From Formosa algae (GTDB taxonomy: Bacteria; Bacteroidota; Bacteroidia; Flavobacteriales; Flavobacteriaceae): DNA of 64,000 bases. The stretch covers positions 1-64,000 of the forward strand of contig NZ_LMAK01000045.1 of assembly GCF_001439665.1 (NCBI RefSeq). The letters run 5' to 3'. A program made the position numbers and the translations under genes. Shown piece by piece: positions 1 to 18,419 of the stretch (position 1 is the first letter of the stretch; the number at the start of each line of letters is the position of its first letter). The notes under the pieces were generated by a model. It saw nothing but the letters and a program-made list of their open reading frames with translations, searched no databases and was not told the origin of the DNA.

Positions 1-12
1 ACAAACTAAAGA

Positions 13-47
13 AACACGTTAGCAACCATATAATACAAAACGTTATA
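13..47. repeat. Partial cassette-boundary palindrome (copy 1, right arm only)
   Basis: The first bases carry ACACGTTAGCAACC followed by an AT-rich tail with AACGTT, which matches the right arm of the palindromic repeats at 914-1053 and 1907-2043. The left arm and central hairpin lie outside the window. It ends 4 bp before the next gene, as the other copies end just before theirs. Only half of a copy is visible, so the assignment rests on similarity to the complete copies. Confidence 0.5.
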
Positions 48-51
48 AAAA

Positions 52-906
52 ATGAAAGAAATAGAATTAAACGACGGAAATAAGTTACCAATTATAGGTT
101 TTGGAACATACAAATCTACCGAGGAAGAAGGTATTCAATCTATAAAAAATGCTTTAAATATAGGTTACAGAATGTTTGATACAGCCGCCAAATATGATAA
201 TGAAAAAGAAGTTGGAAAAGCAATAAATGAAAGTGGAATCGATAGAAGAGAAATTATCGTAACCACAAAATTATGGCGTGAAAATTTAGGTTATGAAGAA
301 GCTAAAAAAGCTTTTGACAAATCACTTAAAAAACTTGGATTGGATTACATTGACTTGTATTTAATCCATTGGCCTGCGAATGCAAAAAACTATAAAGATT
401 GGCAAAAAGCAAATGCAGATAGTTGGCGTGCAATGGAGGAGTTACAAGCTGAAGGGAAAATAAAGTCCATTGGAGTAAGTAATTTTTGGAAAGAACATTT
501 AGAGGCACTTTTTCAAACTGCAAACGTAATCCCTGCTATCAATCAGATTGAATTTCACCCTGGTTATTGGCAATCAGAATTGACGGAATTTTGCAAAAAG
601 AATAATATTGTAGTTGAATCTTGGTCACCTTTGGCAAGGGGAAAAGTGTTTGGAAATGAAATAATCCAAACTATCGCTAAACAACACAATAAATCTATAG
701 CTCAAATCTGTTTGAGATGGATAACTCAACACGAAACCATCGTTATACCGAAATCAAATACACCAAAAAGAATTGAAGAAAATATTAATATTTTTGACTT
801 TAAATTATCAAAGGAGGAAATGAAGCAAATAAATGAACTTCCAGAAATGGGTTTTAGCGGAGAATTACCTAACATTTGGCCAGATGTATTAAATGTTAAA
901 AACTAA
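52..906 (+). CDS. Aldo/keto reductase
   Basis: A 284-residue NADPH-dependent carbonyl reductase of the AKR family, cytoplasmic, probably reducing aldehydes or ketones; the substrate cannot be read from sequence. The AKR catalytic tetrad is visible as D43, Y48, K73 and H106 (in LIHWPA). IPKSNTP near residue 235 is the usual cofactor phosphate-binding motif, and the GVSNF motif is present. Length is normal for the family. The ATG lies a few bases after the partial palindrome at 13-47, and the next palindrome starts 8 bp after the stop, so the gene occupies one cassette-like unit with no visible promoter or terminator. Function family is secure; the physiological role is unknown. Confidence 0.93.
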   Translation: MKEIELNDGNKLPIIGFGTYKSTEEEGIQSIKNALNIGYRMFDTAAKYDNEKEVGKAINESGIDRREIIVTTKLWRENLGYEEAKKAFDKSLKKLGLDYIDLYLIHWPANAKNYKDWQKANADSWRAMEELQAEGKIKSIGVSNFWKEHLEALFQTANVIPAINQIEFHPGYWQSELTEFCKKNNIVVESWSPLARGKVFGNEIIQTIAKQHNKSIAQICLRWITQHETIVIPKSNTPKRIEENINIFDFKLSKEEMKQINELPEMGFSGELPNIWPDVLNVKN

Positions 907-913
907 AAATACG

Positions 914-1053
914 GCTGCTAACACCGTGTAAAAAACATTGCTTATTTTAGTTTATACCAAAGGTCGTTGCTTTGTTTGCTAGCATCTGATTTTCCTTCGG
1001 AAAATCCTCGCACTCAAACACGCAACGTTCCTTACACATAAACGTTGGCAACA
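914..1053. repeat. Cassette-boundary palindrome (copy 2)
   Basis: About 140 bp imperfect inverted repeat. The left arm GCTGCTAACACCGTGTAA (914-931) pairs in outline with the right arm, where CGCAACGTTCC (1021) is followed by TTACACATAAACGTTGGCAAC (1032-1052). A perfect 8-bp central hairpin lies at 988-1006: GATTTTCC, loop TTC, GGAAAATC. The block AAACACGCAAC (1016) recurs in the other copies. It separates the reductase at 52 from the methyltransferase at 1080. Confidence 0.8.
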
Positions 1054-1079
1054 ATTAAAACTTACTCACATCAAATTTA

Positions 1080-1904
1080 ATGGACAGTTTAAATAAAAGC
1101 ATAGAAAATCATTACCTAAAGGAAGGACTTTATGAAGACATTATAAATCGTCTAAAAGAACAAAATATCCCTCTAAATAATGTAAAAAGGTCTGATATTT
1201 CAGGTACTGATGAGTTTCACGTTCGAGGAGCAACTGTGTCTAAAGAGCTTGCCAACAGTATTAACATTAATGGATTAAATGTTCTTGATGTAGGTTGTGG
1301 TTTAGGCGGACCTTGTAGAATGCTTGCAGATGAATACAATTGTCAAACTACAGGAATAGACTTAAGTAATGAATATATACGAACAGCCACCAAACTATCT
1401 GAACTCGTTAATTTAAATAATAAAACAACCTTTATTCAGGGAGATGCTACTGAACTTCCATTCGAGGATAAAACCTTTGATGTTGTTTGGACACAACACG
1501 TGCAAATGAATATCCCAAACAAGAAAAAATTCTATTCAGAAATTAATCGAGTTTTAAAAACGGATGGATATTTTCTATTTTATGATATTCTAAAAAAGGG
1601 AAGTGGTGAAGTTAATTATCCTATGCCTTGGGCTAGTTTGGCTGAACATAGTTTCTTGTTTAAGGCAGAGAAAATGGATAGTTTTTTAAATGAGTTTGGA
1701 TTAACTAAAAAACAGTCTAACAACCAAACCCAAGCCGGAATTGATTATTTTGATACGCTTGTTAAAAGTCTAAAAGAACTTGGACCACCAAAAATGGGAC
1801 TGAATGTCTTAATGGGTGATACAACAAAAACGAAATTAATGAATCTCTTGGTACATTTAAAAAGTGGTGAACTAGAACTTAAAAGTGGAGTTTACAAGAA
1901 ATAA
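1080..1904 (+). CDS. Class I SAM-dependent methyltransferase
   Basis: A 274-residue soluble methyltransferase. Residues about 66-82 carry motif I (VLDVGCGLGG) for S-adenosylmethionine, followed by GIDLSNEYI (acidic residue for the ribose) and GDATELPFEDKTFDVVW (motif II region). The N-terminal DEFHVRGA segment resembles sarcosine/dimethylglycine N-methyltransferase-like and UbiE-like enzymes. The substrate is not determinable; a small molecule is more likely than nucleic acid because no target-recognition domain is present. It occupies the second cassette-like unit, starting 27 bp after one palindrome and ending 2 bp before the next. Confidence 0.88.
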   Translation: MDSLNKSIENHYLKEGLYEDIINRLKEQNIPLNNVKRSDISGTDEFHVRGATVSKELANSININGLNVLDVGCGLGGPCRMLADEYNCQTTGIDLSNEYIRTATKLSELVNLNNKTTFIQGDATELPFEDKTFDVVWTQHVQMNIPNKKKFYSEINRVLKTDGYFLFYDILKKGSGEVNYPMPWASLAEHSFLFKAEKMDSFLNEFGLTKKQSNNQTQAGIDYFDTLVKSLKELGPPKMGLNVLMGDTTKTKLMNLLVHLKSGELELKSGVYKK

Positions 1905-1906
1905 CT

Positions 1907-2043
1907 GTTGCCAACAAAGTATATAATTTATTGCTGGCTTCTCGCCTACTTACGAAAGTCCTCGCGGACTTTCTTGGTCGGTAATTATTTGCAAAATTAG
2001 TTGCTTAACCACGCAACTAATAATACACAAAATAGTTAGCAAC
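1907..2043. repeat. Cassette-boundary palindrome (copy 3)
   Basis: A 137 bp imperfect inverted repeat bounded by GTTGCCAACA on the left and GTTAGCAAC on the right. A perfect 8-bp hairpin at 1954-1973 (GAAAGTCC, loop TCGC, GGACTTTC) occupies the same position as the hairpin of copy 2 with a different sequence. The conserved block TTAGTTGCTTAACCACGCAA lies at 1997-2016. Confidence 0.82.
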
Positions 2044-2071
2044 AAGAAAGACAAAATTCCGAAAAGAAGAA

Positions 2072-2614
2072 ATGAAAGAAAATGTTAAGAAATTTCTAAA
2101 AGATATGATTCCCGTTTTATTTGGGGTTTTAATTGCCTTGTGGATAAATAACTGGAATGAGAATAGAAAAAACACGAAATATATTACCCAGATAAAATCT
2201 TCAATAAATAAAGAGTTAAAGGAAACTAATGACAATATTATAAAGGAATTGTCTTTTCAAAAAAGACTTATTGACACCTTAAATTTTTATAAAACTAACA
2301 ATAAGATTTCGATATTTGACGTAATGATGAAAGCAGATGGAATTCATATGCCCAGTATTAAAATAAACTCTTGGAAAGCCATTTCTGGTTCAAAAATTGA
2401 ATTGTTGGAATATGAAAAAATATCTGCTCTAGCTAGTATTGAAGAACAAAAAGAAGTTTTGGAATCAAAAACTGAACTTTTGGTTAACTTCCTTTATCCA
2501 AATATAAAAGAAACAGGAATTGACAAAAAAGAACTAATTATTTTAATGATGCAGGATATAATTGTTACGGAAAAAGGCCTACAAGAAGAAATTCAAAGCA
2601 TGATTATAGATTAA
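2072..2614 (+). CDS. DUF6090-like inner-membrane protein
   Basis: A 180-residue protein of unknown function. One N-terminal transmembrane helix (about residues 11-27, PVLFGVLIALWINNWNE) has the signature of flavobacterial DUF6090 proteins, in which a hydrophobic helix ends in NNWNE. The rest is a charged, helical, probably extracytoplasmic domain rich in Lys and Glu. The family usually runs about 220-260 residues, so this member is short. It lies in the third cassette-like unit, 28 bp after copy 3, with 66 bp between its stop and copy 4. A second, broken member of apparently the same family is at 7073-7720. Confidence 0.75.
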   Translation: MKENVKKFLKDMIPVLFGVLIALWINNWNENRKNTKYITQIKSSINKELKETNDNIIKELSFQKRLIDTLNFYKTNNKISIFDVMMKADGIHMPSIKINSWKAISGSKIELLEYEKISALASIEEQKEVLESKTELLVNFLYPNIKETGIDKKELIILMMQDIIVTEKGLQEEIQSMIID

Positions 2615-2680
2615 ATTTAGAGTTCATAAAAAAACGATTGTAGATTTGAGAGATTTGTAAAAGTATAAACAAAAAAGCCA

Positions 2681-2815
2681 GTTGCTAACAACGTATAATT
2701 TATTGCTAGTTCTAGCGCACATACAAAATCCTAAAGGATATTTTATTCGGTTTGTATTTTCTAAATTAGGTGCTTAAACACGCAACAAACCATATACAAC
2801 AACACTGTACACAAC
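2681..2815. repeat. Cassette-boundary palindrome (copy 4)
   Basis: A 135 bp imperfect inverted repeat from GTTGCTAACAACG to CACTGTACACAAC. The central hairpin around 2725-2743 pairs AAAATCC with GGATATTTT. The conserved block TTAGGTGCTTAAACACGCAA is at 2766-2785. The next gene's ATG begins 2 bp after the right end. Confidence 0.82.
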
Positions 2816-2817
2816 TA

Positions 2818-3245
2818 ATGAAACACCTAATTTACATATTTATTCTTCTTTTTTTTATTCAATCAAACGGACAAAATACTTCCGAAACATCGTTTTTAAG
2901 ATTAGATTTATTGATTCTTGAAAAAACGACAAAAGACACTTTAGTAGCCTCAATTGTAGAATTATATTCTGGAGAACAAAAAATAGAAACTGATCTTTCT
3001 GACTTAGTTGGAAAAAGTATTCTTATTGTAAATTCAAAGGATATAATTGACAATAAAATTCTCCTTAAAATTTACGGGAGAAAATGTAAACCTTTTGAAA
3101 CGGAACTCATTTAAAAAACGACATTGATACACAGATTTATCTCGAATACGGAAATACAGAATATAATAATCGAAGTCAATTACCTGAAATGTATAAAAAA
3201 CTAAATATAAAGCCAAAAACATCTACTTGTGGGACTGTTGATTAA
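2818..3245 (+). pseudogene. Exported protein gene with a frameshift (cassette gene)
   Basis: The ATG at 2818 starts a signal peptide (MKHLIYIFILLFFIQSNGQ) right after palindrome copy 4; an upstream in-frame ATG at 2770 lies inside the repeat and is unlikely to be used. The frame stops at 3114 after KPFETELI. A second frame then continues without a stop from about 3111 to 3245, reading KNDIDTQIYLEYGNTEYNNR through to STCGTVD. This looks like the natural C-terminus after loss of one base near the A-run at 3113-3118. Joined, the product would be about 142 residues, secreted, with a possible beta-sandwich character. It may be a true pseudogene or a homopolymer sequencing error. Function unknown. 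Confidence 0.6.
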
Positions 3246-3257
3246 TTCAATAAAAAT

Positions 3258-3388
3258 AGTGACTATCCACCGTATAAAATGAATTACTAGTGCAAGCCTA
3301 TTTTTAAAAATCCAATCGGATTTTATTTTTGTACTTTATTTGTTAACTTTAGTACTTAAACACGCCACTAATCATTTACAAACATTTT
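3258..3388. repeat. Cassette-boundary palindrome (copy 5)
   Basis: About 130 bp. The left arm ACCGTATAAAATGAATTACT (3269) pairs loosely with the right arm CACGCCACTAATCATTTACA (3361). The central hairpin at 3307-3324 is AAAATCC, loop AATC, GGATTTT. The conserved block reads TTTAGTACTTAAACACGCCA. The outer left end is degenerate. The next ATG follows immediately at 3389. Confidence 0.72.
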
Positions 3389-4099
3389 ATGAAACTACTT
3401 CTAGCAACATTTCTTTTATTCTCAATTCATTGCTTTTCACAAAAACAATATGAATTTGATTACCTAATCGAGTATGAACAGACTTTATATAAAGATTCTA
3501 TTAAAATCAAAAATCAACCATTCAGAGAAAAAGATAAAACCACAAAAAAATATTATTTAACAAACTCAAAGAATAATAATTATAGAGCTGTAATAACGGA
3601 ATTAGATAGCTTATATTATAAAATGATTTTTAAAGATGAAAACGGAATATATTCCAATGTTACATTCTTAAAGTCCGATTTAAATACAGCCGAATTTATA
3701 AACATAGACTGTAAATATGTAACGAGATATAAAAATCCATTTAAACACCAAACAAAGAATTATGACTTTTTCAAACTTACCGACACTGTAATTAATGGAA
3801 AAACTTTCAGTAAATACAAATTGGAATCAATAAAACCGAGAAAAGTTAAAAGAAAAAAACTAGGTACTAAATTTTACATCATTGATAAAGAAACCTCATT
3901 TCACTTACCTGTACTCGATTTCTCAACAGCCTATGAAGAATGGAAAACAGAAGGGAATTTAGCAAATGGTATTTTTATCGAAAAGTATTTTATAGATTAT
4001 TATGGTAATTTAGGGGAAAAAGAGACGTTAATAAACTATTGGAAAACTGATAAGAAAATTGTAATTAACAGTGATTGTGATTACACAGAAAAGAAATAA
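3389..4099 (+). CDS. Exported protein of unknown function (cassette gene)
   Basis: A 236-residue protein with an N-terminal signal peptide (KLLLATFLLFSIHCFSQ, cleavage near residue 18), so probably periplasmic or outer-membrane associated. The mature part is rich in Lys, Tyr and Asn, with alternating hydrophobic segments typical of beta-rich Bacteroidota proteins. It resembles GLPGLI-type proteins in general build (YEFDYLIEYEQTLY near the start, KFYIIDKETSFHLPVLDF late), but no diagnostic motif was recognised. It starts at the base after palindrome copy 5 and ends 5 bp before copy 6, filling one unit. Confidence 0.75.
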   Translation: MKLLLATFLLFSIHCFSQKQYEFDYLIEYEQTLYKDSIKIKNQPFREKDKTTKKYYLTNSKNNNYRAVITELDSLYYKMIFKDENGIYSNVTFLKSDLNTAEFINIDCKYVTRYKNPFKHQTKNYDFFKLTDTVINGKTFSKYKLESIKPRKVKRKKLGTKFYIIDKETSFHLPVLDFSTAYEEWKTEGNLANGIFIEKYFIDYYGNLGEKETLINYWKTDKKIVINSDCDYTEKK

Positions 4100-4104
4100 A
4101 AAAT

Positions 4105-4235
4105 GTGTTGTAACACCGTGTAAAAATAATTACTCGGTTCTTCCCTACTTACAAAATCATAACAGATTTTCTATGTTAACTGTATTAATTACATTAGGTG
4201 CTTATCCCACGCAATAAACCTTAATCCAAAAACCA
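4105..4235. repeat. Cassette-boundary palindrome (copy 6)
   Basis: About 131 bp. The left end GTGTTGTAACACCGTGTAAA resembles copies 2 and 7. The central arms AAAATC and GATTTT (4151-4168) flank an AT-rich loop. The conserved block TTAGGTGCTTATCCCACGCA is near 4195-4214. The right end merges with the GTG start codon of the next gene. Confidence 0.75.
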
Positions 4236-4799
4236 GTGAACAAAATTATAGCACTTGTATTACTATTAACAATTGGATTTATATCCTGTAAACCCTCTGA
4301 AAAGGAAATTGACAGGGTTGAAATAGCTAAAACATACTATAAGGTTATTAATAATTCAGACTACTATAAATTATCAGAATGGTTTGCCGATAGCCTACAA
4401 ACTATTGAAGGAGAACATAAAAACACCTATTCTAAAAGCGAATATATGGAGCTTTTAAAATGGGATTCCGTTTTTAAACCTCATTATAAAATACTCAATA
4501 TTGAAGAAAAGGACGGAATTGTAAATGCAAAAACCTCAAAAACTAACAAAAGAATCATTTTTCTTCACGAAAAACCGTTTATAATAAATCAAATTTTTAG
4601 GTTTAAAAAAGAAAAAATAATCAGCATAGAAACGGAATATGTGAATTTTGATTATCCGACTTGGGAAAAAAATAAAAACGAACTTTTGAGTTGGATTGAC
4701 AAAAATCATCCTGAATTAAATGGATTTTTAACCGACTTAACAGAAGTTGGTGGCGTGAACTTCTTAAAAGCTATTGCATTATATAAAAGCAAAAAATAA
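4236..4799 (+). CDS. NTF2-like lipoprotein of unknown function (cassette gene)
   Basis: A 187-residue predicted lipoprotein. The start is GTG at 4236, chosen because it gives a complete signal (MNKIIALVLLLTIGFISC) with the lipobox cysteine at residue 18. The mature region (VEIAKTYYKVINNSDYYKLSEWFAD, then a short beta-rich half) is reminiscent of NTF2/SnoaL-like cone folds often seen as small secreted domains, but this is a weak inference. It stands between palindrome copies 6 and 7 with 1 bp between its stop and copy 7. Confidence 0.75.
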   Translation: MNKIIALVLLLTIGFISCKPSEKEIDRVEIAKTYYKVINNSDYYKLSEWFADSLQTIEGEHKNTYSKSEYMELLKWDSVFKPHYKILNIEEKDGIVNAKTSKTNKRIIFLHEKPFIINQIFRFKKEKIISIETEYVNFDYPTWEKNKNELLSWIDKNHPELNGFLTDLTEVGGVNFLKAIALYKSKK

Positions 4800-4800
4800 C

Positions 4801-4975
4801 GTGTTATGTTACCGTAAAAAGTAATTGCGGTTTAGTGCTTATCAAACAGTTAATGTCATTGTGTTAGCTTCTTATTCTTCTTCGGAATCTTCAATCGGAT
4901 TATATATTCAATTTATATTTACTAAATTAGTTACTTTAACACACAACAACCTCATACACAAGCATGTTGTAACAC
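4801..4975. repeat. Cassette-boundary palindrome (copy 7, longest and most diverged)
   Basis: About 175 bp, from GTGTTATGTTACCGT to CATGTTGTAACAC. The outer arms GTGTTATGTTACCG and ATGTTGTAACAC are inverted. The central hairpin is degenerate. The conserved block appears as TTAGTTACTTTAACACACAA (4927). About 35 bp are inserted in the left half relative to the other copies. It is the last copy seen; none occurs to the right of 4975. Confidence 0.7.
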
Positions 4976-5021
4976 ATTCTTAAAACCCTTATATATGTAG
5001 AATTTATATTAATAGAACTAT

Positions 5022-6212
5022 ATGAAACCTAAAACTGAGTATACTAAAAGTGGTGATTTTAACATTGCATATCAAGTGATAGGCGATGGATTAATCGACA
5101 TTTTATATATTCCAGGTTGGGTTTCAAATATTGATATGATGTGGTCTGAACCTAGACTTGCTGCATTTTTAACTAGACTTTCATTATTTGCTAGACTTAT
5201 TATTTTTGATAAAAGAGGAACAGGACTTTCAGATCGTTCTGACGAATATTCTACTATGGAAGAACGAATAGATGATATCAATGCCGTATTGGATGCAACA
5301 CATTCAAAAAAGGCATTTTTATTTAGTCATTCTGAAGGAGGATCTGTTAGTCTATTATATTCTTTAAAACATCCTCAAAAAACTTTGGGAGTTATTGGCT
5401 TTGGAATATTTGCAAAACGCAGATATTCTGAGGACTATCCGTGGGCTCCAACAGATGAAGAACGTGAAATCTCAAATAAAGCCATTGAAGAAAATTGGGC
5501 ACACGGCAATCTTGATGGATTAAAAACATTAGTTCCATCATTAGCGCACGATACAGCATTTCTTGATTGGCTAGCCAGTTATTTGCGTTCTGGAGGAAGC
5601 CCAAAGGCTGCATTAATTTTACATAAACAGTGTGTAAAAATTGATGTAACTGGTGTTTTAGAATCCATTAAAGTTCCTACTCTGCTTCTGTTTAGAAAAG
5701 AGGATATAGACATCCTTGTTGAAGAAGGTAGATATCTGTCAGCACGTATACCTAATTCCAAACTTGTTGAATTTAATGGTAAAGATCATCTGTTTTGGAC
5801 AGGCGACACCTATCCTATTTTAGCAGAAATTGAAGAATTTGTCACAGGAATACGTCCTAACAAATTAGACTTTATAAATGCGAAACAAAAAATTAATAAA
5901 ATAGGAATAGATATAGAAACTGTAATGTCTAAAAATTTCATGTATAATTTAAAAATTGAGGAGTTCGCTAAATTATGTGGCAGAAGTTTATCTGCTTTTA
6001 AAAGAGATTTTAAAAAAACATTTAATACAACACCTTCTAGATGGATAATGTCTAAACGCCTTGAATACGCAAAAACACTTTTACTTGAAACCAATTTAAA
6101 CGTAAACGAAATCTGTTATGAGAGTGGGTTTAAAAACTGCTCTCATTTTATTCAATCATTTAAAAAAAAATTCAAACGCACTCCCAATCAATACAAAGCA
6201 GAATCACCTTAA
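5022..6212 (+). CDS. Alpha/beta hydrolase fused to an AraC-type DNA-binding domain
   Basis: A 396-residue two-domain protein. Residues 1-280 are an alpha/beta hydrolase: oxyanion region PGW (31-33), FDKRGTGLSDR (62-72), nucleophile elbow HSEGG with Ser104, acid probably Asp228 or Asp230 (KEDID), and catalytic His256 (GKDHLFW). The FDKRGTGLSD type is common in hydrolases fused to nucleotide-cyclase domains. Residues about 300-396 hold two helix-turn-helix motifs of the AraC family (LKIEEFAKLCGRSLSAFKRD, and VNEICYESGF near 361-370, ending in RTPNQY). It is probably a regulator whose hydrolase domain binds or cleaves the signal. It begins 46 bp after palindrome copy 7 and may control the neighbouring methyltransferase gene. 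The target is unknown. Confidence 0.88.
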   Translation: MKPKTEYTKSGDFNIAYQVIGDGLIDILYIPGWVSNIDMMWSEPRLAAFLTRLSLFARLIIFDKRGTGLSDRSDEYSTMEERIDDINAVLDATHSKKAFLFSHSEGGSVSLLYSLKHPQKTLGVIGFGIFAKRRYSEDYPWAPTDEEREISNKAIEENWAHGNLDGLKTLVPSLAHDTAFLDWLASYLRSGGSPKAALILHKQCVKIDVTGVLESIKVPTLLLFRKEDIDILVEEGRYLSARIPNSKLVEFNGKDHLFWTGDTYPILAEIEEFVTGIRPNKLDFINAKQKINKIGIDIETVMSKNFMYNLKIEEFAKLCGRSLSAFKRDFKKTFNTTPSRWIMSKRLEYAKTLLLETNLNVNEICYESGFKNCSHFIQSFKKKFKRTPNQYKAESP

Positions 6213-18097: not shown

Positions 18098-18419
18098 ATG
18101 GTGGTTGGTTTTAGTTAATTCTAAGAAAAGATAAACTTTCCCCAACACACCCGCAACGATTAATGTTTTTTATTGTTGTTTTAATCATTTTTAGCAATAA
18201 TTAATGCTTTTTTAGTATTTGAACAAAATTCCGATTATTATCTGGTTTCATCTTATTTTTTTGCGTTAGGGATTGGAATGGCATCCTTTTTATTATCTTT
18301 TCGAAATAAAAAGATATAATGTAAAGCTCGACCTTTAGGTAACGCCCAAATACTTTTTAAACATTTAGTTGTACAATAGATTTATATTTATTTACTTTGT
18401 ATTTCAAAGTTCTTTACTA
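18098..18419. other. Intergenic region with a short coding-like remnant
   Basis: 322 bp between divergent genes. On the + strand a frame without an ATG start is open from about 18183 to the stop at 18317-18319; it reads FLAIINAFLVFEQ, then YYLVSSYFFALGIGMASFLL and SFRNKKI. This looks like the C-terminus of a membrane protein with basic tail, but it could be a chance product of T-rich sequence. The right end holds the operator-like palindrome at 18395-18409. Confidence 0.35.
18395..18409. promoter_or_regulatory. Palindromic operator, copy 1 (CTTTGTATTTCAAAG)
   Basis: CTTTG-TATTT-CAAAG lies 11 bp before the ATG at 18420 and is embedded in ATTTACTTTGTATTTCAAAGT. Nearly the same sequence occurs before creD at 19375. 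TTACTTTG is one mismatch from the -7 consensus TAnnTTTG, so a bound repressor would cover the promoter. The likely binder is the winged-helix regulator at 19057. Confidence 0.65.

Follow-up and report, generated by a model that had tools for sequence, protein, structure and literature searches.

The window analysed here, the whole stretch of 64,000 nucleotides at positions 1 to 64,000 of contig C45 of Formosa algae (genome G000; 4.29 Mb in 82 contigs), begins with six full repeats and the tail of one more alternating with six plus-strand genes. Position 1 is the first base of the contig, and the array is therefore cut by the assembly. The original prediction had described unrelated single genes separated by long palindromes, in the geometry of mobile gene cassettes. 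Sequence comparisons indicate that this is, very probably, the far part of an integron-like cassette array served by a 400-amino-acid (aa) Xer-like tyrosine recombinase, with units exchanged at G|TT. The array comprises the following features, in window coordinates:

1..26, + strand: r1, a repeat truncated by the contig start, with only its 3′ end present; R′ GTT at 18, predicted crossover 18|19.
52..906, + strand: cassette 1 gene, aldo/keto reductase family, 284 aa (PF00248, E 5.3e-60).
905..1059, + strand: r2, attC-like repeat; R″ AAC at 920–922, R′ GTT at 1044, predicted crossover 1044|1045.
1080..1904, + strand: cassette 2 gene, class I S-adenosylmethionine-dependent methyltransferase, 274 aa (PF08241, E 4.4e-25).
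1899..2047, + strand: r3 repeat; R″ AAC at 1913–1915, R′ GTT at 2035, predicted crossover 2035|2036.
2072..2614, + strand: cassette 3 gene, DUF6090-like, 180 aa (19.5 bits against a curated cut-off of 23.5).
2672..2817, + strand: r4 repeat; R″ AAC at 2687–2689, R′ degenerate, with CTG at 2805 replacing GTT.
2821..3114, + strand: cassette 4 gene, 97 aa, no family match (reading frame and family search); probably truncated, judged by eye.
3253..3393, + strand: r5 repeat, outer ends decayed (R1, E 4.5e-23).
3389..4099, + strand: cassette 5 gene, 236 aa, no family match (reading frame and family search).
4098..4245, + strand: r6 repeat; R″ AAC at 4112–4114, R′ decayed.
4236..4799, + strand: cassette 6 gene, GTG start, 187 aa, no family match; lipoprotein-like N terminus by eye.
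About 4795..4979, + strand: r7, the final and most diverged repeat (R1, E 1e-10 over 4848–4979); R′ GTT at 4966.

The alternation of palindromic repeats and genes was found to be real. R1, a sequence model of the repeat built from 24 copies, gave E values of 6e-10 to 1e-30 for the six window copies; r3 to r6 were among the building sequences, r2 (E 6e-10) and r7 (E 1e-10) were not. R1 models sequence only, because RNAalifold gave no pair on the alignment of the 24 copies (A2). The outer ends of r5 to r7 are decayed. The cassette genes are mutually unrelated: an aldo/keto reductase, a methyltransferase, and four genes with weak or no family match.

R1 matched the F. algae genome 63 times at E ≤ 1 (150 candidates scored), with at least 51 matches at E ≤ 1e-4. 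Same-strand runs on ten contigs account for 48 of the 51 strong copies, the other three being singletons (C71, C35, and C36). Several runs reach the end of a contig, the pattern to be expected of assembly breaks within repeats. Genome-wide, the core block TTAGNTGCTTAANCACGCAAC (up to three mismatches) was found 18 times in forward and twice in reverse orientation, and the same pattern read backwards 0 times and once, respectively. Thus, the dispersal at gene ends that characterizes repetitive extragenic palindromic (REP) elements and bacterial interspersed mosaic elements (BIME) was not seen, nor was the scatter at random gene ends that the original prediction had named as counter-evidence.

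That prediction had also stated that the repeat ends break the attC rule RYYYAAC/GTTRRRY, and this was borne out in 132 repeats from 15 genomes. The selection required GTT and AAC, with a spacing of 100–125 in a diverse subset of 46 repeats (190–215 in locus L076), and kept a few chance pairs (L135). RYYYAAC was found in 15 of the 132 repeats, GTTRRRY in 16, and both in only 3. The relaxed forms YAAC and GTTR were found in 131/132 repeats each, AAC and GTT themselves being required by the selection. The core spans 115–122 nt in 126 repeats, a length partly set by the selection. The r2-type repeat (window 905–1059) has copies up to 93% identical in other genera, often closer than the homologous cassette genes (66–85%), a likeness that points to recent transfer of cassettes or sites from genus to genus.

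As predicted, the window is devoid of an integrase, since all seven PF00589 recombinases encoded by the genome lie on contigs other than C45. The search for a tyrosine recombinase beside a cluster of repeats was successful on contig C11. A 400-aa tyrosine recombinase is encoded at C11:228867–230069, at the end of the contig, and a run of two repeats starts just 3′ of the gene, the second of them being truncated where the contig stops. In its catalytic and core-binding domains, which are preceded by about 105 extra N-terminal residues, the protein finds its best sequence match in XerA and Xer proteins. The score against NF040815 (XerA) was 212.4 bits, under the curated cut-off of 220, and the score against TIGR02249 (integron integrase, IntI) was 189 bits (E 1.3e-55), under the cut-off of 265. 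A search of the F. algae genome for IntI (TIGR02249) gave no match at E ≤ 1e-60.

Residues R239, K264, H328, R331, H354, and Y363 of the recombinase are invariant in 24 aligned orthologs, and 63 residues separate the catalytic K264 from H328 in all 24. In the alignment with IntI4 (2A3V), chain residues 181–248 stand opposite residues 285–309 of the query. The distance from the lysine box to HxxR is 58–59 residues in the 16 of 59 rows matching the pattern versus 100 in eight of eight canonical IntI. Judged from these alignments, the recombinase is devoid of the IntI-specific additional domain around patch III. In a tree with eight IntI, the latter were separate from the new recombinase clades; the single Xer row, from the F. 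algae genome, is a long branch in this tree and the root is unsure.

The linkage of arrays to the recombinase was assessed in the best 80 of 590 recombinase loci, with 698 kb of upstream and 277 kb of downstream sequence covered. All 76 R1 hits (E ≤ 1e-3) were located downstream on the recombinase strand, and none upstream. A contig end within 9.9 kb was found downstream only in 25 and upstream only in 1 of the 47 loci of a first recombinase clade, and in 16 and 0, respectively, of the 33 loci of a second clade. In complete genomes, large arrays begin at the recombinase. Arrays of about 70 kb adjoin the recombinases of G113 and G068. Genome G014 harbors 97 repeats (E ≤ 1e-3), which, among the matches listed, lie mainly at 2.7236–2.7917 Mb, beside the recombinase gene at 2.7936 Mb, with a second run at 2.215–2.261 Mb and a few copies elsewhere. 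In 149 genomes of the family, a recombinase match was obtained in 100 at E ≤ 1e-40 (in 38 at 300 bits or more) and R1 repeats (E ≤ 1e-6; best 20 candidates per genome scored) in 124. Both were present in 92 genomes, the recombinase only in 8, the repeats only in 32, and neither in 17 (p = 1e-4); such plain co-occurrence is weak support.

An attI-like sequence, TATAACNAGTT, is located between the stop codon of the recombinase gene and the first unit. It was exact in 16 of the 18 loci first read, the exceptions being a variant in L078 and L086, in which none was found within 420 bases. A wider pattern, sought up to 350 bp 3′ of the gene, was present in 40 of the 74 loci in which the reading frame was found (of 80) and in 1 of 291 control windows. 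The consensus of 50 distinct first-clade sites is TTATCCgGAAA..gATAAA..TATATTtGT..gATATAACnAGTT, with a conserved crossover motif TATAACNAG|TT, 3′ of the recombinase gene. Variable sequence follows the GTT, as the start of a unit should. At L021, the attI-like site is followed by GTTACCTGCA and the 5′ end of the first repeat is AGCAGGTAAC; the 10 bases from GTT pair with this 5′ end at 9 of 10 positions. By its sequence and position, the attI-like site corresponds to the attI of integrons, which lies beside the integrase and receives the cassettes. Upstream from it, TANNTTTG was found in 16 of the 50 sites versus 3.4% of shuffles; this may be a promoter motif (candidate Pc) reading into the first cassette.

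The letters following GTT at the 3′ end of a repeat were compared with the letters preceding AAC at the 5′ end of the next repeat. The analysis involved 88 units, defined as neighbours less than 2.5 kb apart with recognisable GTT and AAC, from the best 150 of 188 matches (the 38 weakest were left out). Some neighbours may skip a repeat, and the score can therefore only drop. The two ends of one unit matched at six of six positions in 58 of the 88 units (mean 4.89); the two arms within a repeat did so in 4 of 125 (mean 2.34). Shuffled units had a mean of 2.12, and the maximum mean in 2000 shuffles was 2.65. In an independent congeneric set (35 units of G534 and 3 units of G535), 29 of 38 units matched at all six positions (maximum shuffled mean of 3.13), versus 0 of 48 for same-repeat arms.

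Pairing was detected at positions +3 to +9 and +11 to +13 in 64–91% of the 88 units, with covariation, since all four pair types were found at +6 and +8. Position +10 is a fixed A.C mismatch in 75 of the 88 units; in the 132 repeats of 15 genomes, A was present at +10 in 131 and C opposite in 115. In the window, the two ends of cassette 1, r1 (GTTAGCAACCATA) and the 5′ end of r2, are complementary at 11 of 13 positions. For cassette 2 (3′ end of r2 and 5′ end of r3), the number is 12 of 13, the sole miss being the conserved A.C, and for cassette 3 (3′ end of r3 and 5′ end of r4) it is 10 of 13. Because the unit ends pair, the circle form folded better than the array junction (−22.3 versus −18.8 kcal/mol; circle lower in 67 of 80, p = 3e-12). 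In the 46 diverse repeats, pairing of arms with their own partner gave −15.5 kcal/mol versus −8.2 kcal/mol for arms swapped between genomes. The pairing of unit ends fits a crossover at G|TT, the tail of a repeat belonging to the next unit and the full site being present only in the free circle. Thus, the unit ends are complementary and would restore a site in the circular form, as is the case for integron cassettes.

Movement of a unit was detected in G014. One unit occurs twice in this genome, identical over 716 bp, with different repeats and genes outside; the identity starts on the left at ACAAACACGTT and ends on the right at ACAAACACGTTG, and is thus bounded by the predicted crossover. 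In two between-genome examples, homology starts at the left GTT. Loci homologous to window units were found in other genomes, and in 11 of 11 a single gene unit was common with the window, two loci also weakly matching a repeat. Cassette 1 has single-unit homologs in other genomes (best 84% over window 9–908), as do cassette 2 (73–82%, in six fetched loci) and cassette 6 (one homolog, 77% over window 4218–4806). The geometry of mobile cassettes thus found support, as units act as single modules, and the same gene order in relatives, proposed at the outset as an argument against mobility, was not seen. The window genes also occur outside recognisable arrays, and one homologous locus (L234) has kept the end barcodes without an R1 repeat.

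Stretches of about 1.34 kb shared by L024 and L249 and by L024 and L253 were dropped as cassette evidence, being insertion-sequence-like and present in several copies. The element (L024:233–1576, L253:3390–4723, and L249:14292–15635) was found in three congeners, and its copy in L024 begins where a repeat ends. It is perhaps an insertion sequence targeting these sites.

In the window, the array stops after r7, because no R1 match is present behind the next gene (5022–6212, + strand). The latter gene, directly after r7, encodes an alpha/beta hydrolase fused to an AraC-type helix-turn-helix domain. Farther downstream, a Flavo-1 RNA (RF01705) is located at 18258–18337 (+ strand; 55.6 bits, gathering score of 42).

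Repeats and recombinase were present in all six species of the genus. G534 harbors an array of about 57 kb behind a recombinase copy that is 43% identical and has an attI-like site. The recombinase contig of G529 stops 634 bases past the gene, with one repeat in between. The close recombinase copy of G535 is intact; its classification as broken was rejected (the two stops lie right at the beginning of the match, and the frame is open over 392 codons). Recombinases of another type, at 34% identity, have R1 repeats directly behind them in G535 (C1:335063–336145, L248) and G533 (C1:1608641–1609744, L251). The pattern used found no attI-like motif after these two genes, and the insertion site of recombinases of this type may be different. 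Array position, size, and enzyme vary among the congeners, and a given type of repeat is not bound to a particular type of recombinase.

The first clade includes recombinases from Seonamhaeicola, Winogradskyella, Lutibacter, Algibacter, Maribacter, Robiginitalea, Gillisia, Polaribacter, Mesonia, and Zunongwangia, and the second clade recombinases from Flavobacterium, Algoriphagus, Pedobacter, and Cyclobacterium. In a sample of 296 Bacteroidota genomes, a profile of 24 recombinases detected a related clade in 83 (E ≤ 1e-70); six family genomes scored above 500 bits and all others 386 bits or less. Many related-clade loci carry an attI-like site, TATAAANNAGTT (20 distinct sequences). Canonical IntI over the cut-off was found in 84 of the 296 genomes, including none of the family of F. 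algae and one of its class; it was frequent in other classes of the phylum, and some genomes (such as G436 and G164) have both kinds of recombinase. A comparison of the recombinase with plasmid and phage records also gave matches at 36–40% identity on plasmids of Chryseobacterium, Flagellimonas, and Arenibacter (records H1, H2, H7, and H8); these are possible mobile forms.

R1 is blind to arrays of other repeat sequence (G078 and arrays outside the family), and a scan without a model was applied to these. This model-free scan sought pairs consisting of an exact GTTN7 and its complement, one pair being linked to the following one, with six other motifs as controls; counts on the other strand are the same pairs by symmetry and do not provide a control. 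It detected 84 links in 22 of 37 loci, versus 7 for the six control motifs together. The repeats of four genomes outside the family (G415, G255, G164, and G179) have no evident sequence in common with R1 and keep the layout. Two arrays of Flavobacteriaceae, L076 (G078) and L077 (G118), have an unrelated repeat sequence that is G+C-richer by eye; the cores of G078 span 205–210 nt versus about 118 elsewhere.

These observations fit the following scheme. The head of an array would consist of the Xer-like recombinase followed by the attI-like insertion site, and the mobile unit would combine a single gene with a single attC-like site, about 145 nt long. The free unit would be a circle. The joining of its two ends would re-create the full site, made up of a unit-specific stem of 14 bp with the fixed A.C mismatch, a short and asymmetric loop, another stem, and a long end rich in AT. 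Exchange of the rebuilt site with attI or with the site of another unit, at G|TT, would be carried out by the recombinase. Units would enter at the head and accumulate in one orientation, so that the oldest come to lie far away. The system appears to work like an integron without being one by definition, owing to the missing IntI insert and the broken attC rule. On balance, we favor a broader reading in which Bacteroidota have an integron class of their own. A folded single-stranded site would be read without the I2 or additional domain that integron integrases are held to need, with unit-specific stems and the A.C mismatch as strand mark, and the recombinase would represent either an independent Xer-like origin or a pre-domain state. 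This class would be a main platform for gene capture in Flavobacteriaceae, missed so far because the tools that detect integrons rely on IntI and attC models.

Several results weigh against an array of mobile units served by this recombinase. The window array on C45 is unjoined to the recombinase contig C11 in the assembly. R1 repeats were present in only 23 of the 80 recombinase loci (22/47 in the first clade and 1/33 in the second), many of which have short downstream sequence, and in the family sample 32 genomes had repeats and no recombinase match at E ≤ 1e-40, with 8 in the reverse situation. The intact close recombinase copy of G535, which has an attI-like site, is followed by one R1 repeat within 9 kb, and the array of this genome lies behind the recombinase at 34% identity, for which the pattern found no attI-like site. 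RNAalifold gave zero consensus pairs on the 24-copy alignment, and 30 of the 88 units lack perfect end pairing. Direct movement is limited to one clean case, within G014 and by sequence. An R1 repeat was found in the fetched flanks of only 2 of the 11 loci homologous to window units and none in those of the other 9, and the model-free scan gave links in only 4 of 15 loci outside the family.

The recombinase could act on the same cassettes through a double-stranded substrate, with a Xer/dif-like or phage-like core, the complementary ends serving only to keep an inverted-repeat core in the circle. The proximity of the enzyme to XerA and Xer proteins argues for this possibility, as does the missing insert by which integron integrases use folded DNA. 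However, a double-stranded core would keep sequence rather than pairing, whereas here the partners lie about 120 nt apart and are free in sequence, with their complementarity kept; arms of unrelated repeats pair with their own partner better than with swapped ones, and the fixed A.C mismatch marks one strand. We therefore regard a double-stranded substrate as unlikely. Ordinary dispersed repeats at gene ends (REP/BIME, miniature inverted-repeat transposable elements, or terminators), moved or duplicated by homologous recombination, would also be palindromic, intergenic, and hairpin-forming, and there are three singletons in F. algae and some copies outside the main arrays in G014 and G533. This explanation is refuted by the distribution of the repeats, with 48 of 51 copies in same-strand runs and 76 of 76 behind the recombinase, and by their pairing, since it does not account for pairing at unit ends rather than within repeats. 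The moved unit of G014 also has site-exact ends. We consider this explanation extremely improbable.

The logic of a classical integron is the same, with an integrase, attI, one-gene cassettes, palindromic sites, and exchange at G|TT, and the TIGR02249 match (E 1.3e-55) raises the question of whether the system is merely a divergent integron or a cluster of attC sites lacking integron integrase (CALIN), with IntI and attC sites. According to the accessible part of PMC8138268, the insert is not fully conserved in one subgroup of integron-like recombinases; some insert-less integron-like recombinases have thus been classified before, in a text that, in that part, does not mention arrays or sites for them. 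As a claim of membership, this alternative is refuted by the score of 189 bits against a cut-off of 265, the missing insert (63 residues from K to H in 24 of 24 orthologs, and the shorter spacing from the lysine box to HxxR), the position of IntI apart from the new clades in the tree, and the observance of both attC half-rules in only 3 of 132 repeats. Furthermore, no IntI match at E ≤ 1e-60 was found in the F. algae genome. Membership is improbable; a common origin of the recombinase with IntI is possible.

Integrons are the textbook gene-capture platform, and their distribution has been read from IntI and attC models. No description of a system such as the present one in Flavobacteriaceae or other Bacteroidota was found in the literature searched, which consisted mostly of papers free of subscription and included no bioRxiv preprints. 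Bacteroidota are listed among the phyla with integrons in the accessible part of PMC8618304; the canonical IntI of 84 of the 296 genomes can explain this listing. In the accessible part of a 2022 survey based on IntI and attC models (PMC9024848), a complete integron in Bacteroidetes proper is reported from Salinibacter ruber, only cassette-less integrases having been found there earlier. The idea that integrons arose from a Xer-like ancestor by acquiring an I2-like domain was raised in 2016 (PMC4792948).

The results point to an integron-like system in most sampled Flavobacteriaceae, where arrays reach tens of kilobases, and in some further families of Bacteroidota. Gene capture and shuffling in these bacteria seem to proceed by a mechanism of their own, and the arrays represent a large and unexamined reservoir of cassettes among common marine bacteria. 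The system makes it testable whether a Xer-like recombinase can use folded single-stranded sites without the I2 helix.

Among known systems, XerA and Xer proteins (NF040815, PDB 5hxy and 4a8e) provide the best match of the catalytic and core-binding domains; the present recombinase differs by its roughly 105 extra N-terminal residues and by a score below the family cut-off. Xer recombinases act at one dif site, in contrast to the arrays of sites found here. Xer-flanked mobile modules, which we take to be pdif modules, consist of genes flanked by short 28-bp XerC/XerD sites and are set apart by this description from the present units, which have folded sites of about 145 nt and a recombinase dedicated to them. 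PMC7399989 describes the mobilisation of gene modules through Xer-type recombination. The layout is also that of chromosomal integrons such as the Vibrio superintegron, in which a tyrosine recombinase lies next to an insertion site and one-gene cassettes form a long array on one strand, each with an imperfect palindrome that is restored in the circle; the crossover is at G|TT, and assemblies break in the sites. In contrast to these integrons, the recombinase described here has an extra N-terminal region and no IntI-specific insert, the attI-like site is 3′ of the recombinase gene with cassettes running in the direction of this gene, and the site follows the rule YAAC...GTTR, with a 14-bp unit-specific stem, A.C at +10, and a core of about 118 nt. 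In the reversed integron of Treponema denticola, the integrase is a true IntI and its gene is oriented in the direction of the cassettes, as is the recombinase gene of the system described here.

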